Shown piece by piece: positions 3,601 to 44,700 of a stretch of 64,000 nt of DNA. The notes under the pieces were generated by a model. The model was not told the DNA's origin. It was given only the letters and a program-made list of their open reading frames with translations, and did no database searches. A program made the position numbers and the translations under genes. The stretch comes from Argopecten irradians (Eukaryota > Mollusca > Bivalvia > Pectinida > Pectinidae), in NCBI RefSeq assembly GCF_041381155.1, contig NC_091144.1, positions 20,903,544 to 20,967,543 on the forward strand, read 5' to 3'. Numbering within the stretch: the first letter of the stretch is position 1; each line of letters starts with the position of its first letter.

Positions 3601-6600
3601 AGTGGACTATGCAGACCTTTGAAGGTGAGGTATACCTTTGATCCGTAGTGCATGGTGGAGGCGAGATCGTACGGAGCTATTTCTGTTTGCGTGATGACTT
3701 TGGCGAAATTCTTCTTTCCTGATTTCTTGATCAGGTCAAGATTAACATTAACGAAGTGATCCCTGTCCTCGCGACACTGCTCGTGGTAGAAACCAACAGC
3801 ATGGCCAATCTCGTGTACCACGATACCGGGCTGAAACAGAAACCAATAACATGGCCAATCTCGTGTATCACGATACCGGGCTGAAACAGAAATCAATAAC
3901 ATGGCCATTCTCGTGTATCACGATACCGGGCTGAAACAGAAACCAATAACATGGCCAATCTCGTGTATCACGATACCGGGCTGAAACAGAAAGCAGGAAC
4001 CAATAGCATGGCCAATCTCGTGTCTCACGATACCGGGCTGAAACAGAAACCAATAGTACGGTCAATCTCGTGTACCATGATACCGGGCTGAAACAGAAAC
4101 CAATAACATGGCCAATCTCGTGTATCACGATACCGGGCTGAAACAGAAAGCAGGAACCAATAGCATGGCCAAACGCGTGTCTCACGATACCGGGCTGAAA
4201 CAGAAACCAATAGTACGGTCAATCTCGTGTACCATGATACCGGGCTGAAACAGAAACCAATAGTACGGTCAATCCAGAAACCAATAATACGGTCAATCCC
4301 GTGTACCATGATACAACGCTGGAAAAGAAACCAATAGTACGGTCAATCTCGTGTACCGCGATACCGGGCTGAAACAGAAATCAATAGCATTAGCAATCTC
4401 GTGAACCACGATACCGTGCTTGAACAGAAACCAAAAACATGGCCAATCTCATATAGCACAATACCGTGCTCAAACAGAACCCAACAGCATGGCCAATCTC
4501 ATGTGCCACGATACCTGGTTGGAACAGAACCACGATACCGGGCTGAAACAGAAACCAACAGCATGGCCAATCTCATGTACCACATACCTGGCTGGAACAG
4601 AACCACGATACCGGGCTGAAACAGAAACCAACAGCATGGCCAATCTCATGTGACATGATACCTGGCTGGAACAGAACCACGATACCGGGCTGAAACAGAA
4701 ACCAACAGCATGGCCAATCTCATGTACCACGATACCTGGCTGGAACAGAACCACGATACCGGGCTGAAACAGAAACCAACAGCATGGCCAATCTCATATA
4801 GTTCAATACCGAGCTGGAACAGAAACCAAAAACGTGGGCAATCACGTGTACCACGATACATGGCAATTTGAATGTACCTTATATTCGTTAAGGTAAAGAT
4901 ATATATTCGTAAAGGTAAAGATATCGATAGCTGTGAGTTTCTGGCACAAAATAAAGGGTTTATGGAGTTCAGTAACGAAATTAACTCCCTTACCATTGTA
5001 CATCCAGGTTCCTTCAGGTATATAGGCTGGGCATGTCTACTAGTGTAGCCTACCATTGACGCGCACCTATAACAAACAGTGATTAAAACTGTGACATTCA
5101 TTACAGGTTATAAAATGTCCCTGTATTCATAGTATAACCTACCAAAAATCAACAAAAGCAGACTTGGCAAATTATCATATCTCTGCTAAAGGTCACATTG
5201 AAATAAATGTATATCCCAACTTTATTTCCAGTCTCCTACCAGAATAAGACACATTGACATCTCACCCTTTTCCCGTTCCAAACGAGAGATAGTGGTCGTG
5301 TTTGATCACTTTCCTCAGATCTGAATATCGCTGCTTCTGTTTGACGATGTCTACAAACTCCAGACATGTGTATCTCTCCCAGTGCTTCATCGCTATCCGG
5401 ATGTAGATTTTCGATTTGGCATTCACTGGAAAATTGTTTATAATTGATGCATATAAATAGCAGGACAATAAAAACTATCTTTCAAAAACTGTCCAATTTC
5501 TTACACACATTATACTTCAAATATTGTAAACCAACTTATTTTCGCGGAGATTTAATTTAGCGTTTTCATACCTAAGGACGTTTTCGCGGAGATTTGATTT
5601 CACGTTTTTATACCTATGGACATTTTCGCGGAGATTTGATTTCACGTTTTTATACCTAAGTTTAATTTTGCGGTTTTTTTGTGTGTGTGTGTTGTTGGTT
5701 TTTTTTTTTTTTTTTTTTTTACCTCAGGACGTTTTAATTTGATGTCGCGTTTTTATACCTAAGGACGTTTTTGTGAAGATTTAATGTCGCGTTTTTATAC
5801 CAAAGGACGTTTTCGTGGAGATTTAATGTCGCGTTTTTATACCAAAGGAGGTTTTCATGAAGATTTAATGTCGCGTTTTTATACCTAAGGACGTTTCCGT
5901 GGAGATTTAATGTCTCGTTTTTATACCTAAGGACGTTTCGTAAAGATTTAATGTCGCGTTTTTATACCAAAGGACCTTTTCGTGGAGATTTGATTTCACG
6001 TTTTTAAACCTAAGGACGTTTTCGCGGAGATTTGATTTCACGTTTTTATAACTAAGGACGTTTTCGTGGAGATTTGATTTCACGTTTTTATACCTAAGGA
6101 CGTTTTCGTGGAGATTTGATTTCACGTTTTTATACCTAAGGACGTTTTCGTGGAGATTTGATTTCACGTTTTTATACCTAAGGACGTTTTCGTGGGCATT
6201 TAATTTTACGTTTTTTTACCCAAGAACGTTTTCGTTGACATTTCATTTCACGTTTTTATACCTAAGGACGTTTTCGTTGAGATTCCATTTCGCACTCTAA
6301 ACTTCTAGAGTTCTACTTCAGTTGTATTTGAAAGTTTTGTCGAAAATTATTTATATTATTTCCTTTCGCCCGTCATCGTCGATACTGCAGGGCTAATTAT
6401 AACTGACGTATAGTAACCCAGGGGTTATTATCACTGACGTAAAATAACCCAGGGGTTATTATAACTGAGGTAAGGTAACCCAGGGGTTATTATAACTGAC
6501 GTATAGTAATCATCACTGACGTAAAGTAACCTAGGGGTTATTATGACTGAGGTAAGGTAACCCAGGGGTTATTATAACTGACGTATAGTAACCCAGGGGT

Positions 6601-9329
6601 TATCATAACTGACGTAAGGTAACCCAGGGGTTATCATAACTGACGTAAGGTAACCTAGGGGTTATTATAACTGACTTATAGTAACCCAGGGGTTAATATG
6701 ATTGGCGTAAAGTAACACAGTGTTATTATAACTGACGTATAGTAACCCAGGGGTTATAACTGACGTAAGGTAACCTAGGGGTTATTTTAACTGATGTATA
6801 GTAACCCAGGGGTTATTATAATTGGCGAAAAGTAACACAGTGTTATTATAACTGACGTATAGTAACCCAGGAATTATTTTCAATGACGTGTAGTAACCAA
6901 GGGGTTAATATAATTGACGTATAGTAACCCCTGGAGTATCGACGAGGATCGCACGCGAAAATAAGTTGGTAGGCTGAAATACTATAGTTTTATATTCCCA
7001 GAAAGTATTCGATGTTATGAACTACTATATTGACATGGTTACATGTGGATACGGAGGTTAATTAACCTCAGATAACACTATATTAAGTAGGGCCTCACTA
7101 AAGCGACGCCGCCTGGTCTCGAACTTGTACGGTATGACACCATGTGGCCATATCCTGGACACAAATCGGATCAGCTTGCGTTTGACAAGAGAGATATCTT
7201 CTTCCTGTATGGAGAAATCAAACACTCAACTACAGAGAGCTGGAATTAAGTAATACTTGATATTTATGCTCACATACAAACGCTACAGTGTATCCTAAGC
7301 ACTTTAGATCATTTTCAGAAATTAGGGGTTCAATATCATAGGCAAAATCAGTGAACACCTCTAGCATACACAGTTTATAATCCATTCATTTGAATTAACG
7401 TATAAATATTTTTGTGTAACCTCTAAATCATGTGCGGAATGAGATATGGATCGGTTACTGAGAAAAAAAGTTGTAAATATGGACGACTCTTGTCGGACGA
7501 CAACGAGCAAAAAAAGAACTTAAATACATGTATATGTAATAACTTTTGCAAGTCTACATAATCTCGTTTTTATTCAAAAGCCGTTTCGGAAATTTAGTGG
7601 CCCTTAATATATAGTAATACACGAAGTATCCAGTTTGCCTTTATCACATTCCTAAATTTAGTACTTCGATTTCAACAGTATGTGTTACCTTAAAATCGTC
7701 AGGTAATACGTCACCCATAGCCTCTAGTATTTGGTGAGACTCGTTTTCATCTTCGGGGCCCGTTACATTATCGATGTCCTGGTAAAAGAATACAAAGATT
7801 GTATACGACAGAAATAATAACACAACATACGAGTTAATGGAGAACCACATAAAACAGTTAGATCCATTTAGACATTATAATGCATCTTCACTGATCGATG
7901 CATCCTCGATACTCCAGGGTTCCGATCACTTACGATCTCTACACCCCTGGACTATCTCATAGTGAAATTGAAGGCAGCTCAGCGGAAAACATTTGACCAA
8001 TCACAGACTATCAAAGATTTCCTTTGAAGACTACAGAGAGAGCGACACCTAACATCAAAGCCACACAGTCAACCACAGTGTACCGTTATACGGCTCTTTT
8101 GATGTACATCAAATGACTAAATTACCTGTTCTACTCTGTAGCCTCCAGTTTTACCATGAGATAGTCCAGGGGTGTAGAGATCGTAAGTGATCGGAACCCC
8201 TGGAATATCGAGGATGTGATCGATGGTACAATCACGGAATCACCTTTATAGTAAAGTTAACGTGTGAGAAGTTTATAAAGACATTACATAAGTAAACCTT
8301 ACACAATTCTCCTCTGTACCGTTGCCAAGCACCACAAAGCTACTGCAAGGTTGGAATTGGCTTGCATTCTGAAACGACCATAAAATAAGTATTTCTGAAA
8401 TATGCGTACGATTACCCAATGTTAATCAGCCTACGGTATAAACGAAGCGTAATGGAATTTAGACACTGTGTTTCCTAGGGTGAAAGGTAATAATATTTTG
8501 TATAATTCTAATGACATCTACGTTTTCTACAGTTAATCATTTATAGCATCCTCGATACTCAAGGGGTTATTATCACTGTCGTTATGGACACTGCAGTAAT
8601 GATATCTTGGGTGTCCATCCTCGATACTCTAGGCTTACATGTTATGGATACTGCAGTAATTATATCTTGGATGTTCATCCTCGATACTCCATGGGTTACT
8701 ATCACTGTCGTTATGGATACTGCAGTAATTATATCTTGGATGTCCATTCTCGATACTCCAGAGATTACTATCACTGATGTTATATCCACATCAATGTTAG
8801 TTAACCCATGGAGTATCGAGGATGGAGTTGTAATATCGCGATGTCAGGGCGTTGCTGTCAGTTATTTTTTAGTGTTTCTGTATCAGAAAGGACAAGTTGT
8901 ATTGCGATAAACATTATGGATATCTGTAAGATCACTTTACAATTTCCGATGTTTTGGTTACATCAGGCTGTTTTGCGGCGTCACGCAGTTATATAATAAT
9001 TTTGTGTCACTAAGTTGTCATTATTTGATTGAAACATTGTATTGTATCTGAAATATACAACTGGACTTGGCACATGATTTCAAACTCCTGCTATCCCCTC
9101 CTCAAATATATTTACAATGTCTCTCGGATTCGAGAAGTAATGATATTGTAAGAATGTATTACCGTAGATTTAGATTACATAATGCAGCTATACATAGATA
9201 CATATAAACTATATATAAGAAAAAAACCCATCTACATGAGCGATCTTAATGCAAATTCAAAATAAATACCTGTTGTATTACATTCACGGCGACGAGGATG
9301 AAGAGAAGTAGACGAGGACACCCCGACAT
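634..9329 (-). CDS. Secreted astacin-family zinc metalloprotease with EGF and CUB domains (3' end off window)
   Basis: Ten exons with matching phases: 9270-9329, 8303-8368, 7689-7778, 7099-7204, 5266-5425, 4994-5066, 3636-3830, 1878-2004, 1273-1395, 634-734; 367 residues so far, no stop reached. Residues 1-20 are a signal peptide (MSGCPRLLLFILVAV...). The prodomain has MGDV (63-66), like the astacin aspartate-switch FxGD. The catalytic domain starts near WPHGVIPY and carries HEIGHAVGFYHEQ with zinc ligands H191, H195, H201 and base E192, then the Met-turn STMHY (M245, Y247). Next come a six-cysteine EGF module (about 295-323) and the start of a CUB (SSPNYP, CVWLI). The layout matches the blastula protease 10/tolloid group: an extracellular endopeptidase activated by prodomain removal. 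Its introns hold several minisatellites and MITEs. The exact substrate cannot be told. No further exon is visible below 634, so the CUB must continue beyond the window. Confidence 0.95.
2244..2555. mobile_element. Short inverted-repeat MITE, copy 1
   Basis: The left end (GGATCAGACAACATCCCATC, then a GAGGTCAC..CTGG stretch) is matched inverted at the right end (CCAGAATGTGACCTCC, then GGGATGTTGTCAGATCC). The arms are about 35-40 bp. A related copy lies at 19430-19612. There is no coding capacity. It sits in an astacin intron. Confidence 0.7.
2780..3546. repeat. Interspersed element with GGTCATCTGA ends
   Basis: It starts at AGGTCATCTGACCCGAAGGG and ends with an inverted TTTCAGATGACC. The interior holds two to three diverged copies of a roughly 150-bp unit (ACGCTACTAGTCATAAAGTT, then GGCAGGAGGGGCGGGCCC). 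A CGTCGTCGTGCGCCGTGCGC run near the left end is typical of this kind of mollusc repeat as I remember it. The open frames here (for example 2904-3155 minus) are by-products of the repeat. Located in an astacin intron. Confidence 0.6.
3831..4862 (-). repeat. Tandem array of astacin splice acceptor plus zinc-site exon start
   Basis: Units of about 50 bp, with 57-bp and about 74-bp variants, lie head to tail and directly abut the true acceptor of the catalytic exon (exon starts at 3830). Read on the minus strand each unit is TTTCTGTTTCAG, then CCCGGTATCGTG, then the codons for HEIGH and the following Val/Ile-Gly-Phe. That is the intron's polypyrimidine tract, its AG, and the first 12-15 codons of the exon. 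About 21 acceptor-like CAG ends can be counted. Many units keep HEIGH; others drifted to HENGH, HEIDR or HAFGH. Because 50 is not a multiple of three, the frame shifts at each unit. The whole array lies in intron 6, between exons 4994-5066 and 3636-3830. Confidence 0.93.
5545..6290. repeat. 42-bp minisatellite
   Basis: About 17 copies of a 42-bp unit (core CACGTTTTTATACCTAAGGA followed by CGTTTTCGTGGAGATTTGAT). Since 42 is a multiple of three, the minus strand reads as a false 14-residue repeat. A pure T tract interrupts it around 5698-5720. The unit looks like an amplified version of the element's own end, which also has ACTTATTTTCGCGGAGATTT. Confidence 0.92.
6385..6935. repeat. 32-bp minisatellite derived from a MITE end
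   Basis: About 17 copies of a 32-bp unit (GGGGTTATTATAACTGACGT then ATAGTAACCCAG). It is bracketed by ATCGTCGATACTGCAGGG on the left and CCCCTGGAGTATCGACGA on the right. These are the ends of the CATCCTCGATACTCCAGGGG MITE family found at 7901, 8546, 12773 and 14622. The unit matches the sub-terminal part of that MITE, so the array seems to have grown inside a copy of it. Confidence 0.88.
7901..8216. mobile_element. Mutator-type MITE, 316 bp, with 9-bp target duplication
   Basis: Terminal inverted repeats of about 75 bp start CATCCTCGATACTCCAGGG. The copy is flanked on both sides by the identical 9-mer TGATCGATG (7892-7900 and 8217-8225). Nine-base duplications are the norm for Mutator-like elements. 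The length is exactly that of the copy at 12773-13088. No coding capacity. It lies in an astacin intron. Confidence 0.88.
8546..8826. mobile_element. Rearranged copy of the same MITE with internal tandem units
   Basis: It begins CATCCTCGATACTCAAGGGG and ends CCATGGAGTATCGAGGATGG. Inside, a block of about 80 bp (MITE end, ACTATCACTGTCGTTATGGA, CACTGCAGTAATTATATCTT) is repeated three times, each with its own CATCCTCGATACTC end. No matching 9-bp flank is seen. The small ORFs here on both strands are repeat artefacts. Confidence 0.75.
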
Positions 9330-16271: not shown

Positions 16272-16751
16272 TTTAGGTTACCATACTCAAAATATACTGT
16301 AAACTACCTTTCTTTGGCAGTGATAAAGATTCGATAGTTCTGTTTCAAATAAAATTCACAACAGAGATCAACTTTTACAAATAACAAATTTCTTTTAATA
16401 AAACTGAGGTCAATATTGATTTGCGATATAAACTTTGTGAATTTACCTTGATTTTGAAAGTAAATCACATGTGATGGAAAGTGAGTTTACAGTATATGTA
16501 GGTAAGAATTTGTCATAACACAAAATCTTGTTCCAAATTCCGAACCCTAACAGGCTCTTGTTTATTGACCTGAAACATCTTTGTACAAATGGAAAATTTA
16601 CATGTCCATAAAATATCACAGAGGTAATTTTACTTTATAATGAAATATACAACTTGATGAAGAAATATATTAAAAATTCACGAAGAATTCATGAATATAT
16701 GTATAGATGACTGTATGATAAAATGTGCTTATCATTTGGTATATGATAATC
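16272..16751. other. Intergenic between convergent CUTC and DENND10
   Basis: About 480 bp of AT-rich sequence after the CUTC stop with no gene seen. It may hold the 3' UTR of CUTC and, on the other strand, the distal 3' end of DENND10 transcripts. Confidence 0.5.
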
Positions 16752-19140
16752 CATAACTTGATGAGATATTGATAAATGATAATACCTAACTTGATGAGAT
16801 ATTGATAAATGATAATCCCTAACTTGATGAGATATTGATAAATGATAATCCCTAACTTGATGAGATATTGATAAATGATAATCCCTAACTTGATGAGATA
16901 TTGATAAATGATCATTCACAACTTGATGAGATATTGATAAATGATCATTCATAACTTGATGAGATATTGATAAATGATCATTCATAACTTGATGAGATAT
17001 TGATAAATGATCATTCATAACTTGATGAGATATTGATAAATGATCATTCATAACTTGATGAGATATTGATAAATGATAATCCCTAACTTGATGAGATATT
17101 GATAAATGATCTTCATAACTTGATAAGTGTTGATAAATGATCATTCCTAACTTGATTAGATATTGATAAATGATCATTCATAACTTGATGAGATATTGAT
17201 AAATGCTAATCCCTAATTTGATTAGATATTGATAAATGATCATTCATAACTTGATGAGATATTGATAAATGATAATCCCTAACTTGATGAGATATTGATA
17301 AATGATAATCCCTAACTTGATGAGATATTGATAAATGATCATTCATAACTTGATGAGATATTGAATAATGATCATCATTCAAAACTTGATGAGATATTGA
17401 TAAATGATCTTCATAACTTGATAAGAGTTGATAAATGATCATTCATAACTTGATGAGATATTGATAAATGATCTTCATAACATGATAAGTGTTGATAAAT
17501 GATCATTCATAACTTGATGAGATATTGATAAATGCTAATCCCTAATTTGATGAGATATTGATAAACCATCATTCATAACTTGATGAGATATTGATAAATG
17601 ATAACCCCTAACTTGATGAGATATTGATAAATGATCATTCACTAACTTGATGAGATATTGATAAATGATCATTCATAACTAGATGAGATATTGATAAATA
17701 ATCATTCAGAACTTGATGAGTGTTGATAAATGATCATTCATAACTTGATGAGATATTGATAAATGATCATTCATAACTTGATGAGATATTGATAAATAAT
17801 CATTCAGAACTTGATGAGTGTTGATAAATGATCATTCATAACTTGATTAGATATTGATAAATGATCATTCAAAACTTAATGACATATTGATAAATGATAA
17901 TCCCTAACTTGATGAGATATTGATAAATGATAATCCCTAACTTGATGAGATATTGATAAATGATCATTCATAACTTGATGAGATATTGATAAATGATCAT
18001 TCATAACTTGATGAGATATTGATAAATGATCATTCATAACTTGATGAGTGTTGATAAATGATCATTCATAACTTGATTAGATATTGATAAATGATCATTC
18101 ATAACTTGATGAGATATTGATAAATGATCATTCATAACTTTATGAGATATTGATAAATGATCATTCACAACTTGATGAAATATTAATAAATGATCATTCA
18201 TAACTTGATGAGATATTGATAAATGATCATTCACAACTTGATGAGATATTGATAAATGATCATTCACAACTTGATGAGATATTGATAAATGATCATTCAT
18301 AACTTGATGAGATATTGATAAATGATCATTCATAACTTGATGATATATTGATAAATGATCATTCATAACTTGATGAGATATTGATAAATGATCATTCATA
18401 ACTTGATGAGATATTGATAAATGATCATTCATAACTTGATGAGTGTTGATAAATGATAATCCCTAACTTGATGAGATATTGATAAATGATCATTCACAAT
18501 TTGATGAGATATTGACAAATGATCATTCATAACTTAATGAGATATTGATAAATGATCATTCACAACTTGATGAGATATTGACAAATGATCATTCATAACT
18601 TAATGAGATATTGATAAATGATCATTCATAACTTGATGAGATATTGATAAATGATCATTCACAACTTGATGAGATATTGACAAATGATCATTCATAACTT
18701 AATGAGATATTGATAAATGATCATTCACAACTTGATGAGATATTGACAAATGATCATTCATAACTTAATGAGATATTGTTAAATTATCATTCATAACTTG
18801 ATGAGATATTGATAAATGATCATTCATAACTTGATTAGATATTTATAAATGATCATTCATAACTTGATTAGATATTGATAAATGATCATTCATAACTTGA
18901 TGAGATATTGATAAAAGATCATTCATAACTTGATGAGTGTTGATAAATGATCATTCATAACTTGATGAGATATTGATAATGATCATTCATAACTTGATGA
19001 GTGTTGATAAATGATAATCCCTAACTTGATGAGATATTGATAAATGATAATCCCTAACTTGATGAGATATTGATAAATGATAATCCCTAACTTGATGAGA
19101 TATATAGATCAATGATCATTTATAACTTGATAAGATATTT
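16752..19140. repeat. 33-bp minisatellite, about 72 copies, with higher-order structure
   Basis: Unit AACTTGATGAGATATTGATA then AATGATCATTCAT. Main variants end in GATAATCCCT or GATCATTCAC, or have the shortened GATGAGTGTTG core. Around 18490-18780 two variants alternate (GATATTGACAAATG with GATATTGATAAATG plus TTAATGAG) to form a 66-bp dimer repeated about four times. Because 33 is a multiple of three, long false ORFs appear on the minus strand. The array ends about 25 bp from the DENND10 stop codon and should lie in its 3' UTR. Confidence 0.96.
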
Positions 19141-35700: not shown

Positions 35701-38700
35701 GGTAAGGGGCTACTGTAAGGGAGTTTGAAAGCAATACTGTAAACTGACTTTCTTTCACAGCTACAAATTATTGCAATTTCCATTAGAAAGCTCTTGAATA
35801 TTGACATTTTTGGATTTAAAACTAAATGCAAAGTAGATATTGATTTGGGGAAATAAACTTATCACAAATATTCTTTGATCATGAAATTAGCGAAAGTTAA
35901 TCCTACATGATATAAGTTGGATTACAGTAGGCAGTCATGTAGTTGAAAACTGATAAGAACATATGTAGACAGTCATCCAGAAAGAAAGTTAAAATTGTTC
36001 TGTAGATGGGATCAGCTTTATCATCAGGTTTGAAGTTCCCCTTGCTTTTATTTGTGTCTTAATAATTTTGAATTGGCCAAATAAAATTACTGAATGATAT
36101 GAACTGTTGGCTGAGTAGAAATTTTAATTGGTTTCCTGGTTGCTATGAGAACACCAATAAAAAAGAACAAATTTTGTTTTTGTCATTATTGCTCCCATGA
36201 CTTACTTCAAATATTTCTATCCCCGACATGGTAACTCCAAGCTTCAAAACATCAAAAAAGTGTACATAAATATCATTACAAGTATTTCAGATTGATTTCA
36301 AAATCTGAAGGACAATCTGGGATTTTTACAAAATTTTGTTAGGACATTTTGAAAGAGCACTGGCAAAATGGCCTAAATTTAGCCCTAATCTGAAACACTG
36401 CATACTATTTCATGTTTAATATACAATAATTGGCCATTTATCCAATATTAAGGCTATCTCAAGTCATTGAAAACTCAAGTATCACCCAGTTATAACAGAT
36501 CACAGAGTCATGCATTAAGATAAGGATGTATTGTTTGTAGCAGCTTCAGGGACGAGAAACCTGCCTGGAGACCAGAAGGAGCCCGTGAAGGAGGAGGATG
36601 GCGTGAAAGGGAGAAACAAAGGACAGACAGCTGGAAAAAGGAATCAAGCCCGGTTAAACAGTGAGTTACATAATTACCTGGTCTCACTGGAGTAAAAAGA
36701 AGATACATTTTTGATTGCACTGAAAATGGAAAAGCTTTTAGTTAAAGTAATGTTTGGAAATTCTTAATGTATTTAATTTATAGTTGTTTCTCACAAGTCA
36801 ATAGATGAGTTCATGTTTTCCTGATTTGTACTTTGCTATTTTAATCACTCTGGTTTCATATAGTGTTCTAAATATTGTTTCTCCTGATATATGGTTTGAA
36901 CTATGAAGACATTGTTAAATAATATGGACTTATATCTGATTGTCTCTGCCTTTCAGACCTGAGGAAGATAGATGGCGTCGGGACGGTAGTAGGCCTGACG
37001 AAGGCAGGGAACCATGGCGAGGTGGCCGTGAGGGACGTGAAGATGGAGAGAGAGATAGCTGGAGAGGCCGAGATGAAAGAGACGGCGATGGATATAAACC
37101 TCCTCTCAGAGAAGATCGTGGTGGATTTGAGAGAGGCCCTCGAGAGGGTAGAGATGGATACGGAGATAGAGGACCTAGAGATGATAAAGACAGCTACCGC
37201 CCACCAAGAGATGAAGGACGATGGGGTGATAGAGGTCCAAGAGACGATCAGGAAGGAGGATCACGCTGGCGACAAGATGACCGAGGCCCGAGAGAGGAAA
37301 GGAAAGAGGAGAGGCCTTGGAGAGGAAGTCGTGGAGGTGACAGTGAAGGAGGAAGATGGGGTTCCAGAGGAGGGGGCTCAAGAGGAGGAGATCCTGAAGG
37401 TGGTAGGTGGGGCTCCCGCGGAGGGGACTCTGAAGGTGGAAGGTCTGAAGGTGGCCGATGGGGTTCTCGTGGAGGAGACTCTGAAGGTGGTAGCCGTTGG
37501 TCTCGAGGAGGAGACTCGGAAGGCGGAAGGTCTGAAGGCGGACGATGGGGCTCACGTGGAGGAGACTCGGAAGGTGGTAACCGTTGGTCACGAGGAGGAG
37601 ACTCAGAGGGTGGCAGAAGAGGTGGTGACTCTGAGGGCAGATGGGGCTCAAGGGGGGGAGATTCGGAAGGAGGAAGCAGATGGGGGTCAAGAGGAGGTGA
37701 TTCTGAAGGAGGAAGCAGATGGGGCTCAAGAGGGGGCGATTCTGAAGGAGGAAGAGAACGTGACTCAGATGGCGGAAGTAGATGGGGAAGAGGGGGAGAC
37801 TCCGACAGAAGGGGAGGTGACTCTGATGGTGGAAGTAGATGGAGATCAGGAAGAGCAGGAATGCCTCGGGATGTACGACTGGATGATCCTATCCCAGAAA
37901 ACAGACCACCACGTGATGATTGGAAAAAAGGTAAATTAGTTTAAGTTTTGTCCAATTGCCTCGGCGTTGCCAGGGTTTATTTGTTGAACTGTGGTGTTAC
38001 TTAGGGGCATATATCAACAACTGATATTGTCTTCTTGTTCATGCCACTTGTTCATGCCTAATTCATGGTTTTGAACTAATGTACGTCAGTTTACAAACAT
38101 TTGTGGCATAATTATACAAAATGGATTACATTATTTATAGAGAAAACGGAGTGAAGAAGATTGTTTAATGCTTAGTCAACTCCATTCCTAAAAAAAAAAA
38201 AAAAAAAATGATTTCCCAAGGCTATGTATTTTGATGAATTTTTACTTGTCTTGTTTAGAGATGTCTGCATTTTGTTTTTATGATGAATTGCTTCGGTGTT
38301 GCCTCAGTTTATTTGTTGAACTTTAGTTTTACTAAGGGGCAAATATCAAACAGATCAATAGAATTCTAGATCTTGTTAGAACTTTAAAGTGGTTTATCAA
38401 TCATTGGATGTAATCACGTTCATGTTTGACTTTGTAATAATGGATTACTGAAAAGTCTTTAATTTTTCTTATACAGAGGATCAATTCAATGAAGTTTAAG
38501 AGGAGATTTATGGGGAGAAAGAAATAATCTTTTTCATTTAAACAACTTCTTGTGTCAAATATCGTTTAAATTCATCTTTGTGACGAATTGCCTCGGCGTT
38601 GCCAGGGTTTATTTGTTGAACTGTGGTGTTACTTAGGGGCATATATAAACAACTGATATTGTCTACTTGTTCACGCTTAATTAATGGCTTTGAACAAATG

Positions 38701-41700
38701 TACGTCAGTTTACAACTTACATGTGACATAATAATATATAAACCTTACTCGTTGCATGTTTATACGAAATTGATTACATTGTTAATAGAGAAAACTGAAT
38801 GAAGAAGTTTGTATAACTCTTTCACCCCTGAAATTCCAAAATTGACTATTCCTTCCTTTGAACTAGAAGAATCAAAATGCAACTTCAAGGGTGGATTGGT
38901 TAAGGCTTAGTGAATTTTATTTCTCGAACTTTTCCATGTAATTTGGAGGGCATTTCACCTGTCGTGTTTAAGAGATGTCTGCATTTTTGGCGTTGCCACA
39001 GTTTAGTTGTTGAACTTTGGTGTTACATTAGGGGTACAGAGGATTCCGCTTATTTGCATAGGTCATTTTCCAGAAGAAAATATGCAAATAACCGGAGTAT
39101 TGGAATAGGCGGAGATGACATTTTGCACCTCCGTTTGACCCCACACATATGTATGTGAATAGGCAAATATATATCGTTTCGTTAACTTGATAAATACGTA
39201 AATTATTAACACTTAAAACGAACAACAAGTAATTATTTTCGAAGTTGTAAATCGATTTTAATTTTTTAATAACAAAAAATATTCCAATATTAGATTCTTG
39301 TTTACGTTAGATCGACACGTGAATTTTTGAGAAACAGCTAAACGATCGATATCAAATGCAATTAGATTCTACTAAACAGGATTGGATTTGTGTCTACAAT
39401 TCTGAACCTAAATAATAAACAAATTTACGTACATTTGCCTGGCAAAATGAACTTACGATCGTGATTAAACTTCAAAGTGCCGATCAACTAGTAGTGTTGT
39501 TTTTACAAATGTACTGTATGTGTATATGAATTCGAAAATGGCGGCAGGTGATGAAGCCATGCGTTCACTCGACCTAAATGTGTTTTGAGAATTCTCCCTG
39601 TATTGTTGATCTATACGGCGAATAGCTTGATAACATTTCAGAAATTAATGCATATTCAAGTAGCAATGAAACAACGTAGCAAGTATCTTTTGTATCCTAA
39701 GCTTACATACTGTACGAAACTTGCGGTAGTCATTGCACGCCGACTTTGCATGCTTTTATGTCTCGTTCAACGAGACGCTTGTTACGCACATGTCTGTCGT
39801 AGTCAACAAGACTCTGGTTGAACGAGACTACTAATGAATGGAGATTGTTGTAAGGAAGCATGGTTTCTCCAAGCGATCGCGAACTAAGGTACGTTACGTT
39901 AATAAATAAACATATTTGAAAGTGCAAATGCTTTAATTAGATGTTTGAGTCAGTGATTGTACTAAAGTAATGATCTACCGCTGCTGATGTAAATCGTAAC
40001 AGCGTCGAATACCTTTGCAGATTCATGCATAAAATAACAAGCAATACTATAACGTTAATCTGTCACCATGATGATTTCTAGTAAAAGCGAAGTATCTTGA
40101 AACATATATCGGCGAATTTCGCTAAAAATATATTGCAAAATTGAAAAATATTCGATTTTATTTTTAGAATTTCCCAAATATTTTATTCAAATAACCGGAG
40201 GTCATGTAAAAGTCTATGCAAATACACGGAGTTGAAAAACAAAGATAAAGAAGGAAAAAATCGGGACCGCAGAATTTTATTCAAATAACCGAAATATTCG
40301 AATAACCGTTATTCGATTATGTGGAGTCCTCTGTATATATATATCAAACAGATTAACAGAATTGTAAATTGTGCTAGAACTTGAAAGTGGTTTATCAATC
40401 ATTGGCTGTTCATATTTGACTTTGTAATGATATATGGCTTACTGAAAACTTTGTAAACAGAGGACCAATTCAGTGAAGTATAAGGGGAGACTCGGAGTAA
40501 AAAATCTTCTATATTGTTACCACTACATTTCATGTCAAATATTGATTAATAGTGTTGGGAATCGGTTGAAATTTTATGATCGATCACTTTTGTTTGTCAA
40601 GATATCGGGCAATTCTGATGAAACTCAATTACATAATTCTTAATCGATTAATTGGTCAAACACCCCAAACCAATGATGTTCAATGAACTTGATTAATCGG
40701 AACACTACTATTGATTAGTTTTGTGTTTGTAATGAATTGCCTCGGCGTTGCCAGGGTTTATTTGTTGAACTGTGGTGTTACTTAGGGGCATATATTAACA
40801 ACTGATATTGTCTACTTGTTCACGCTTAATTAATGGTTTTGAACAAATGTACATCAGTTTACAAACATTTGTTACATAATTATACAAAATGGATTTTGTT
40901 AAGACAAAACTGAGTGAAGAAATTTGTTTAATGCTAATGAAATGAACTCTATTTCTCAAAAAAAAAAAAAAAAAAAAAAATTGAAACTTCTGCAGGCTAT
41001 TTACTTTGATGGGTTTTTACTTGTCTTGTTAAAGAGATGTCTGCATTTTGTTTTCAGGATGAATTGCTTCGGCATTGCCTCAGTTTATTTGTTGAACTTT
41101 TGTGTTACTTAGGGGCAAATATCAAACAGATCAATAGAATTCTAAATCTTGTTAGAACTTTAAAGTGGTTTATCAATCATTTCATGTAATCACCTTCATG
41201 TTTGACTTGGTAATAATGGCTTACTGAAAATTCTTACACAGAGGATCAATTCAATGTAGTTTAAGGGGAGATTGTAATAATGGCTTACTGAAAATTCTTA
41301 CACAGAGGATCAATTCAATGTAGTTTAAGGGGATATTGTAATAATGGCTTACTGAAAATTCTTACACAGAGGATCAATTCAATGTAGTTTAAGGGGATAT
41401 TGTAATAATGGCTTACTGAAAATTCTTACACAGAGGATCAATTCAATGTAGTTTAAGGGGAGATTGTAATAATGGCTTACTGAAAATTCTTACACAGAGA
41501 ATCAATTCAATGTAGTTTAAGGGGATATTGTAATAATGGCTTACTGAAAATTCTTACACAGAGGATCAATTCAATGTAGTTTAAGGGGATATTGTAATAA
41601 TGGCTTACTGAAAATTCTTACACAGAGGATCAATTCAATGTAGTTTAAGGGGAGATTGTAATAATGGCTTACTGAAAATTCTTACACAGAGAATCAATTC

Positions 41701-44700
41701 AATGTAGTTTAAGGGGAGATTGTAATAATGGCTTACTGAAAATTCTTACACAGAGGATCAATTCAATGTAGTTTAAAGGGGATATTGTAATAATGGCTTA
41801 CTGAAAATTCTTACACAGAGGATCAATTCAATGTAGTTTAAGGGGAGATTGTAATAATGGCTTACTGAAAATTCTTACACAGAGGATCAATTCAATGTAG
41901 TTTAAGGGGATATTGTAATAATGGCTTACTGAAAATTCTTACACAGAGAATCAATTCAATGTAGTTTAAGGGGATATTGTAATAATGGCTTACTGAAAAT
42001 TCTTACACAGAGGATCAATTCAATGTAGTTTAAGGGGATATTGTAATAATGGCTTACTGAAAATTCTTACACAGAGGATCAATTCAATGTAGTTTAAGGG
42101 GATATTGTAATAATGGCTTACTGAAAATTCTTACACAGAGGATCAATTCAAGTTTCAATGTAGAAAATTTTAAGGGGATCAATTGTAATAATGGCTTACT
42201 GAAAATTCTTACACAGAGGATCAATTCAATGTAGTTTAAGGGGAATTGTAATAATGGCTTACTGAAAATTCTTACACAGAGGATCAATTCAATGTAGTTT
42301 AAGGGGATATTGTAATAATGGCTTACTGAAAATTCTTACACAGAGGATCAATTCAATGTAGTTTAAGGGGATATTGTAATAATGGCTTACTGAAAATTCT
42401 TACACAGAGGATCAATTCAATGTAGTTTAAGGGGATATTGTAATAATGGCTTACTGAAAATTCTTACACAGAGGATCAATTCAATGTAGTTTAAGGGGAG
42501 ATTGTAATAATGGCTTACTGAAAATTCTTACACAGAGGATCAATTCAATGTAGTTTAAGGGGAGATTGTAATAATGGCTTACTGAAAATTCTTACACAGA
42601 GAATCAATTCAATGATTTAAGGGATTGTAATAATGGCTTACTGAAAATTCTTACACAGAATCATTCAATGTATTTAAGGGAATTGTAATAATGGCTTACT
42701 GAAAATTCTTACACAGAGAATCAATTCAATGTAGTTTAAGGGGAGATTGTAATAATGGCTTACTGAAAATTCTTACACAGAGGATCAATTCAATGTAGTT
42801 TAAGGGGAGATTGTAATAATGGCTTACTGAAAATTCTTACACAGAGGATCAATTCAATGTAGTTTAAGGGGATATTGTAATAATGGCTTACTGAAAATTC
42901 TTACACAGAGGATCAATTCAATGTAGTTTAAGGGGAGATTGTAATAATGGCTTACTGAAAATTCTTACACAGAGGATCAATTCAATGTAGTTTAAGGGGA
43001 TATTGTAATAATGGCTTACTGAAAATTCTTACACAGAGGATCAATTCAATGTAGTTTAAGGGGAGATTTAGGGGGAGAAAGAAATAATCTTTTTATTACC
43101 ACTTCTGATGTCAAATATTGTTTAAATCTGTTATTGTGATGCATTGCCTCGGCGTTGCCAGGGTTTATTTGTTGAACTGTGGTGTTACTTAGGGGCATAT
43201 ATAAACAACTCATATTGTCTACTTGTTCACGCTTAATTAATGGCTTTGAACAAATGTACGTCAGTTTACAACTTACATGTGACATAATTATACAAAAACT
43301 TAACTCGTGGCATAATTATACGAAATTGATTGCATTGTTAATAGAGAAAACTGAATGAAGAAGTTTGTATAACTCTTTCACCCCTGAAATTCTAAAATTG
43401 ACTATTCCTTCCTTTGAACTAAAGAATCAAAATGCATCTTCAAGGGTGGATTGGTTAAGGCTTTATGAATTTTATTTCTCGGAACTTGTAACTTAGAGAG
43501 CTTTTCATGTTAAAGAGATGTCTGCATTTTGTTTTTGTGATGAATTGCTTCGGTATTACCATGGTTTAGTTGTTGAACTTTGGTGTTATTTAGGGGCAAA
43601 CATCAAATGGATTGATAGAATTACAAATTTTGTTAGAACTTAAAAGTGGTTTATCAATCATTGGCTGTTCATATTTGACTTTGTAATGATATATGGCCTA
43701 CTGAAAACTTTGTAAACAGAGGACTAAATCAGTGAAGTATAAGGGGAGTAAAAAATGTTGTTTATTATCATTACCACTGCATTTCATGTCGTATATTGTT
43801 TAAATCTGTTTATGTGATGAATTGCCTTGGCGTTGCCAGGGTTTATTTGTTGAACTTTGGTGTTACTTAAGGGCATATATCAATATAGACTGAAAGAATT
43901 CTTAGTTAGAACTTGAAATTGGTTATAACTATTGTATATCAGTCTAACAAGTTCTTTTCTTATCTGTTGTATGGCGATAAACAATTTAGTTTTTCGACTT
44001 TTTCTCCAAAACTACCGAACCAAATTTGTTGAAATTTTGCAGAAACCTTCCATAGCCAAAGGTCAACCAAAATTGTGAATTATATGGTGGGGCTGGGGTG
44101 GGGCCAAAAGTAGTCAAATAGGCTAAAACTTCAAAAATCTTCTTCTTATATTCCAGAAATGGTAGAATCAAATACTTTTCATAGGTTAAATGGTCCTTTT
44201 TAAGGCTCTTTACAAAAATTGTGAATTTCATGGCCCTGGTATCTCGGATTTTCCCCCCGAGTAGGGGGTCAAATCTATTACAGTTTGTATTGGAAAAACA
44301 CATTTATGGGCATCACTTGCTTAATTTTCATAGGAAATGAGGCAAACTTGGTTAGAATTATTACCCTGCGATAGCAATTTTAGCATCATATCCATATTGG
44401 TCCTGGCTGACCCTCTGTGGCAGATGGGCAGGGCCAAAAGGGGTAAAAATGGCTAGATTTAAAAAAAACTCTTCTGAATTCACAGATTTGATGGAACCAG
44501 AAACTCTTCATAGATTGAAAAGTCAAATCAAAGTTATAAAATTACTGACTGGTTTCAAGGGTCTGATAGGCCAATATATAGTGTTTATATGTCTTTGTTT
44601 CATTCTGTATCCGAACTCCTGCAGAAGCCCAATGGCCTCTTGTTTAGATCCTTGAAAAATGAGTCATAGATTATGAAATTTAGTCACTATCATTTTGTTT

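Follow-up and report, generated by a model that had tools for sequence, protein, structure and literature searches.

Within the 64,000-nucleotide stretch of Argopecten irradians DNA analysed here (the window), the intron before the catalytic exon of an astacin gene carries a tandem array of copies of its own 3′ splice site together with the start of that exon. This raises the question of whether such an array serves the gene, by diversifying the protease or by setting how much of it is active, or whether it is a minisatellite that the gene tolerates. The reading favoured here, with a probability of about 0.8, is that the array is a near-neutral, homogenising minisatellite of the 'mirage' kind at the astacin catalytic exon, of which the last acceptor would be used while errors would pass to nonsense-mediated decay (NMD). 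The neutral reading is backed by the anatomy of the array, the open frame of ten exons, the stops behind upstream copies, the lack of codon constraint, the arrays found in unrelated genes and the absence of an array excess at junctions.

The host gene

Astacins are defined by an HExxHxxGxxHE zinc motif and an SxMHY Met-turn. Both are present, as HEIGHAVGFYHE and STMHY, in a full astacin (M12A) catalytic domain encoded on the minus strand by a gene of ten exons with GT-AG introns in consistent phase and 367 joined residues. The joined product scores 168.7 bits against Pfam Astacin PF01400, where it aligns to positions 2-189 of 189, and it matches Pfam CUB over profile positions 1-32 of 110. From 5′ to 3′, the exons comprise a possible first exon with a signal-peptide-like MSGCPRLLLFILVAVNVIQQ (9270-9329, by eye) and a possible propeptide exon whose phase fits (8303-8368), these being the two weakest calls and the latter the weakest; a putative propeptide exon (7689-7778); an exon that would hold the end of the propeptide and the start of the catalytic domain (7099-7204); an astacin exon (FMNAKSKIYIRIAMKHWERYTCLEFV..., 5266-5425); the exon before the catalytic exon (CASMVGYTSRHAQPIYLKEPGCTM, 4994-5066, donor GTAAGG); the catalytic or zinc-ligand exon, from HEIGHAVGFYHE to the Met-turn STMHYGSK (3636-3830); the last catalytic-domain exon (YFSKNGSCTIK..., 1878-2004); an EGF-like exon recognised by its cysteine pattern, with no Pfam match (1273-1395); and the first third of a CUB domain, seen with Pfam (634-734). 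Among 17 solved sequences matched, the one whose alignment was inspected (3lqb) crosses the junction GCTM|PGIVVHEIGHAVGFYHE without an insert.

Anatomy of the array

A junction minisatellite is confirmed: on the minus strand it fills 4863-3831 of the intron 4993-3831, in 22 segments flanked by the donor at 4994/4993 and the putative true acceptor at 3831/3830, the 3′ splice site of which (GTTATTGGTTTCTGTTTCAG, 3831-3850) would be made from the last repeat unit. Most segments measure 50 bp, with variants of 24, 49, 57 and 74 bp, and between successive unit starts there are 18 full units (at least 45 nt) and four partial units of 24 bp. A full unit joins the 43 nt of the exon start (PGIVVHEIGHAVGF) to 7 nt of the intron end and reads, substitutions aside, CCCGGTATCGTGGTACACGAGATTGGCCATGCTGTTGGTTTCT (exon nt 1-43) followed by GTTTCAG (the last 7 intron nt). 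A 20-base junction pattern, TTTCTGTTTCAGCCCGGTAT, occurs 20 times at up to three mismatches, the true junction included, where shuffles expect 0.01, and the exact 24-mer TTTCTGTTTCAGCCCGGTATCGTG occurs 11 times, again including the true junction. A preliminary description of the locus is thereby borne out in its main points, namely about 20 junction copies before the catalytic exon, a duplicated unit that spans the intron/exon junction, and a 50-bp period that breaks the frame between units. Its statement that every unit holds the HEIGH codons stands only in part: the four partial units among the 22 segments end before these codons, and across the 18 full units HEIGH is exact in eight and HExxH intact in nine, one of the motif-intact units (4591) having a 1-nt deletion farther upstream within the unit. 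The outermost unit (4863) has no AG in front, so that the ancestral intron end is not recognisable there.

Reading frame and choice of acceptor

When 22 upstream starts were tested in the phase of the upstream exon, all ran into a stop, and only 3830 gave an open exon; the test covered the unit-boundary starts between 3830 and the outermost unit (4863). An AG precedes 20 of the 22 starts, the two others being 4518, which reads CCAA, and 4294, an internal break of the 74-bp unit, and all 20 lead to a stop. Most copies can be regarded as plausible acceptors, as had been proposed, with the exception of 4518, 4294 and 4863, and the zinc-ligand codons into which they would feed have decayed to varying degrees. 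Stops are met even where the offset is divisible by three, as at 3980 (+150). A hypothetical unit that kept the exon sequence unchanged would have no stop in any of the three frames; TGA codons created by the change of GTGGTA to GTGATA (four proximal units, 4137, 3980, 3930 and 3880) or to GTGAGA (units 4194 and 4037) account for many of those observed, and from acceptor 3880 the stop is located in the exon itself, in a shifted frame.

The 23-mer of the true site, including three exon bases, is identical at copies 3930 and 4087, so that local splice-site strength cannot explain the choice of the last copy. The last acceptor (3830) would nonetheless be the one used by the spliceosome, in keeping with the earlier suggestion, as the only choice tested with an open reading frame; the simplest explanation would be exon definition, pairing 3830 with the nearby donor at 3636/3635. 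Because stops follow the upstream acceptors, their use would yield truncated, presumably NMD-sensitive messages and not modified proteases. Of the two outcomes of alternative splicing envisaged earlier, extra in-frame inserts are unsupported in this allele, given the stops behind all 20 acceptors, and out-of-frame or truncated products persist only as predicted messages. In the proximal units, a change from GCTGTT to GTTATT creates a UNA motif within the 27 nt upstream of the true acceptor that contain no AG; on a reading of the sequence it might be a branch point.

These same features could suit regulated unproductive splicing, in which the array would be a sink of decoy acceptors whose length, differing between alleles, sets the amount of active protease. 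Every one of the 20 upstream AG acceptors tested leads to a stop, copies 4087 and 3930 equal the true site as 23-mers, the AG is invariant in 18/18 full units, and many stops arose through GTGATA or GTGAGA, where an unchanged copy of the exon sequence would be open in three frames. Homogenisation alone, however, is expected to spread substitutions over several units, and this explanation is considered unlikely in view of the divergence among units and of the distribution of similar arrays, both described below.

Divergence among the units

Compared with the exon, the 18 full units carry 71 differences that are non-synonymous and 19 that are synonymous (a synonymous share of 21%, with 27% expected for random change), a tally that counts shared changes once per unit and excludes the inserted stretch of three units; when each distinct change is counted once, the synonymous ones number 9 of 37. 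Minority bases per column amount to 1.73 in HEIGH, 2.11 elsewhere in the exon portion and 0.86 in the intron columns. A slower change of the HEIGH codons than of the polypyrimidine part had been suggested earlier as a test, and these figures do not support it; across the 18 full units no codon constraint was found, the HEIGH columns being about as variable as the others and the synonymous share standing at 21% against 27%. Variation in the seven intron columns, at 0.86 minority bases per column, lies below the 1.98 of the exon columns, and their AG is invariant, as noted above. Selection for acceptors might be suspected from this, but 4 of the 37 windows of seven columns in the exon part are equally conserved. 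The idea that the acceptor is better conserved than the remainder of the unit was accordingly rejected, the effect being weak and not distinguishable, and intron columns that are not clearly more conserved than exon windows weigh against a decoy sink.

Units 3880, 3980 and 4137 are identical, the outermost units have diverged, and the true exon start matches none of the 18 full units exactly. Judged from the unit sequences, this divergence pattern is the usual picture of an array homogenising inside and not at its edges.

Junction arrays elsewhere in the genome

When the 846-Mb assembly was searched for the array at the DNA level, with very common words skipped, nine matches were returned, all at this locus. 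Unrelated arrays of the same kind were sought in a non-random sample of 115 exons from five protein families (astacin, CCT/TCP1, myosin, esterase and ABC). The astacin sample consisted of 25 loci retrieved by a search with the catalytic exon, the CCT/TCP1 sample of the best-scoring 30 of 59 exon matches, near-identical copies on contigs C4 and C451 included, and the remainder of 40 of 82 myosin, 14 of 86 esterase and 6 of 25 ABC matches, these last three being hand-chosen from tables and mostly short exons. Positives were junction arrays with at least three copies of an acceptor or donor, each inspected by eye. Such arrays were present at 8/115 sampled exons, or 7/114 without the window locus: three of 25 astacins (L017, which is the window locus, L029 and L040), one of 30 CCT exons (L054, a donor array at 1640-1878), three of 40 myosins (L077, L092 and L102, all at acceptors) and one of the 20 esterase and ABC exons (L132, an ABC-transporter-type exon with a donor array at 396-732).

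At the second astacin, L029 (764-1519; C15, 13234864 region), an unrelated 43-bp array lies at the acceptor of the zinc-ligand exon, with 16 junction copies by pattern, 15 of them with AG, and all 14 upstream candidates matched give stops. The third, L040, repeats the donor of the catalytic exon in 19-bp units; the pattern matches 23 times across this locus, in 19 cases with GT. A further astacin, L038 (reverse strand 83-1335; C2, 3676515 region), bears a 62-bp array at the donor of the exon preceding the zinc-ligand exon, with 20 copies by pattern, 19 with GT, repeating GYQILSLKQDVCMQ|GTAAGT; it was excluded from the 8/115, since the array sits at the preceding exon, outside the sampled junctions. 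The myosin-head exon L092 (reverse strand 1-330; C5, 36365841 region) has a 60-bp acceptor array, the period being a multiple of 3, and its five upstream acceptors in the fetched stretch, past which the array extends, would all be in-frame, each unit adding a 20-residue insert without a stop. Decayed arrays were also met, with AG in 2/3 copies at L077 and GT in 3/4 at L054. Two-copy cases were counted apart (L052, L088 and L131), as was a 118-bp duplication of 2.1 copies at L101, and three loci were dropped from the survey count: L086 (an intronic array), L127 (16 bp, 2 copies, 8 nt outside the match) and L047 (the whole exon repeated 0.8 kb away, visible with 1.5-kb flanks only). Direct repeats of the exon match in 300-nt flanks occurred at 12/115 loci, L086 and L101 included, against 0/115 for the inverted control; L040 was found by TRF and missed by this direct-repeat test. 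The genome is thus rich in splice-junction minisatellites, which is a new observation here.

Whether junctions are favoured by such arrays was judged from TRF arrays with a period of at least 10 and at least 2.5 copies, in a rough test that uses exon-match edges as a proxy for junctions, with a by-eye check in the positives only. Coverage was 3.5% within 3 nt of the edges and 3.9-5.2% at 30-300 nt, the latter produced in part by junction arrays reaching into the adjacent intron; it was 6.8-11% at 300-1500 nt (from the 55 long-flank loci only) and fell to 1.1% within exon matches at more than 30 nt from the edge. Without the astacins the edge and 30-300-nt values were 2.8% and 3.0-3.5%, and for astacins alone 6.0% and 6.0-13.2%. 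By TRF coverage of the sampled exons there is no array excess at junctions relative to nearby intron, which leaves a splice-site-specific amplification unsupported. Most simply, a genome rich in minisatellites would give rise to arrays at many sites and would tolerate those that copy splice junctions.

This distribution also bears on the decoy sink, against which stand both the lack of a junction excess and the occurrence of junction arrays in unrelated, housekeeping-type genes, on donors as well as acceptors. A broader and likewise unlikely proposition is that junction minisatellites are pervasive in the lineage (about 1/15 sampled exons) and that at least some of them, varying in length between alleles, regulate productive splicing through tens of near-identical competing sites; in some genes, myosin L092 among them, upstream acceptors would in addition give in-frame 20-residue inserts.

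Integrity of the gene, the assembly and the product

Somewhat less probable than a decoy sink is a decaying gene, in which the array would be tolerated because its host is dead. The region read did not yield a complete CUB domain, and the next CUB-like piece adjoins a 2.8-kb array of 28-bp units, where no fitting-phase acceptor was seen by eye, whereas the ten exons are open and in phase with GT-AG introns, and the active-site and Met-turn motifs are intact. An array created or stretched by misassembly is more improbable still: tandem arrays are prone to this error, but the units differ in substitutions and in length (24, 49, 50, 57 and 74 bp), all nine matches in the 846-Mb assembly fall at this locus, and similar yet unrelated arrays occur elsewhere in the genome. 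Least credible of all, to the point of being very nearly dismissed, is protein diversity through acceptors that would yield proteases with inserts before the active site, since some upstream acceptors do lie at a multiple of 3 from 3830 (3980, +150) but each of these meets a stop in this allele, for which in-frame insert isoforms from unit-boundary acceptors were rejected, and the units are without codon constraint.

Origin of the array and comparison with known systems

In the near-neutral reading, the founding duplication would by chance have straddled the acceptor of the astacin catalytic exon, probably through a slip at TTTCT, which the polypyrimidine tract (TTTCT-GTTTCAG) shares with the exon (GGTTTCTACC). 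Its second copy follows 38 nt into the exon, and it is proposed as the slip site because slippage between both copies predicts exactly a 50-bp unit. The array would then have grown and homogenised by unequal exchange or slippage. The spliceosome would take the last copy (3830), occasional use of an upstream copy would lead to a premature stop and NMD, and the array would be close to neutral.

Minisatellites with units that span an exon-intron boundary are described in amphioxus as 'mirages', for Adh3, the globins BflGb6 and BflGb9 and troponin C, with units of 10-160 bp, and were proposed there as raw material for intron gain (PMC3087553). PGBD5 repeats are described as similar to amphioxus mirages (PMC3902484), and both sources report that amphioxus mirages do not disturb regular splicing (PMC3087553, PMC3902484). 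The astacin array has the same architecture and belongs to this known kind: its tandem units span the exon-intron boundary with exon and intron sequence in each, are mostly 50 bp long, carry AG before 20/22 upstream starts tested, and show by inspection concerted evolution inside the array, boundary copies left out. BflGb6 has the same layout, with the 3′ intron end and 5′ part of the exon repeated, but has 6 and 3 copies of 150-160-bp units, compared with 22 segments and a 50-bp unit here. In BflGb9 it is a 3′ exon boundary that is duplicated, as on the donor side of L040, L038, L054 and L132. The amphioxus cases differ also in belonging to another animal group, whereas the arrays reported here occur at 8/115 sampled exons and are known from the DNA of one assembly. 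No mollusc example of a mirage was found in the open-licence literature searched. The earlier remark that no astacin with such an array had been described may hold in print, but L029 is an astacin with a different array at the same exon, and mirages are known from amphioxus.

A duplicated junction is also known from human CBS, in which 844ins68 duplicates the intron 7/exon 8 junction and the more distal site is strongly favoured in splicing, according to a source that calls the sites donors while a reference title in it speaks of 3′ splice site selection (PMC2630376). In this respect, 844ins68 resembles the astacin array in its duplicated intron-exon junction, the distal copy being preferred in CBS, and differs in having two copies only and a known effect on a linked mutation. 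A 31-bp VNTR of human CBS sits on the donor side, at the exon 13/intron 13 boundary, and is unlike the astacin array in side and unit position; it has reportedly been linked to reduced CBS activity. Tandem repeats modifying human gene structure are also the subject of a published study.

Should the rate of the non-random sample hold genome-wide, thousands of exons would stand beside near-identical copies of their own splice site, which would amount to a large natural experiment on intron gain and on how the spliceosome chooses among equivalent sites. Gene annotation and long-read assembly call for caution, because a valid splice site seems to be present in most units.

Other repeats in the window

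Arrays account for 15.5% of the bases in the window. At its left end (1-442, continuing left as L042 3630-6442), about 100 copies of a 28-bp unit extend over 2.8 kb, most with an acceptor-like TTTGGACAG. A CUB-like piece adjoins it. This array was considered as a second junction array of the astacin gene and was rejected and left out of the count, because by eye no AG stands in fitting phase beside that piece. Further minisatellites lie at 5737-6291 (42 bp x 13), 6388-6930 (62 bp x 9), 16736-19139 (33 bp x 73) and 41210-43068 (64 bp x 29). On the plus strand, 36940-37944 is an open frame with repeats that, by eye, resembles an eIF4B-like RNA-binding protein.
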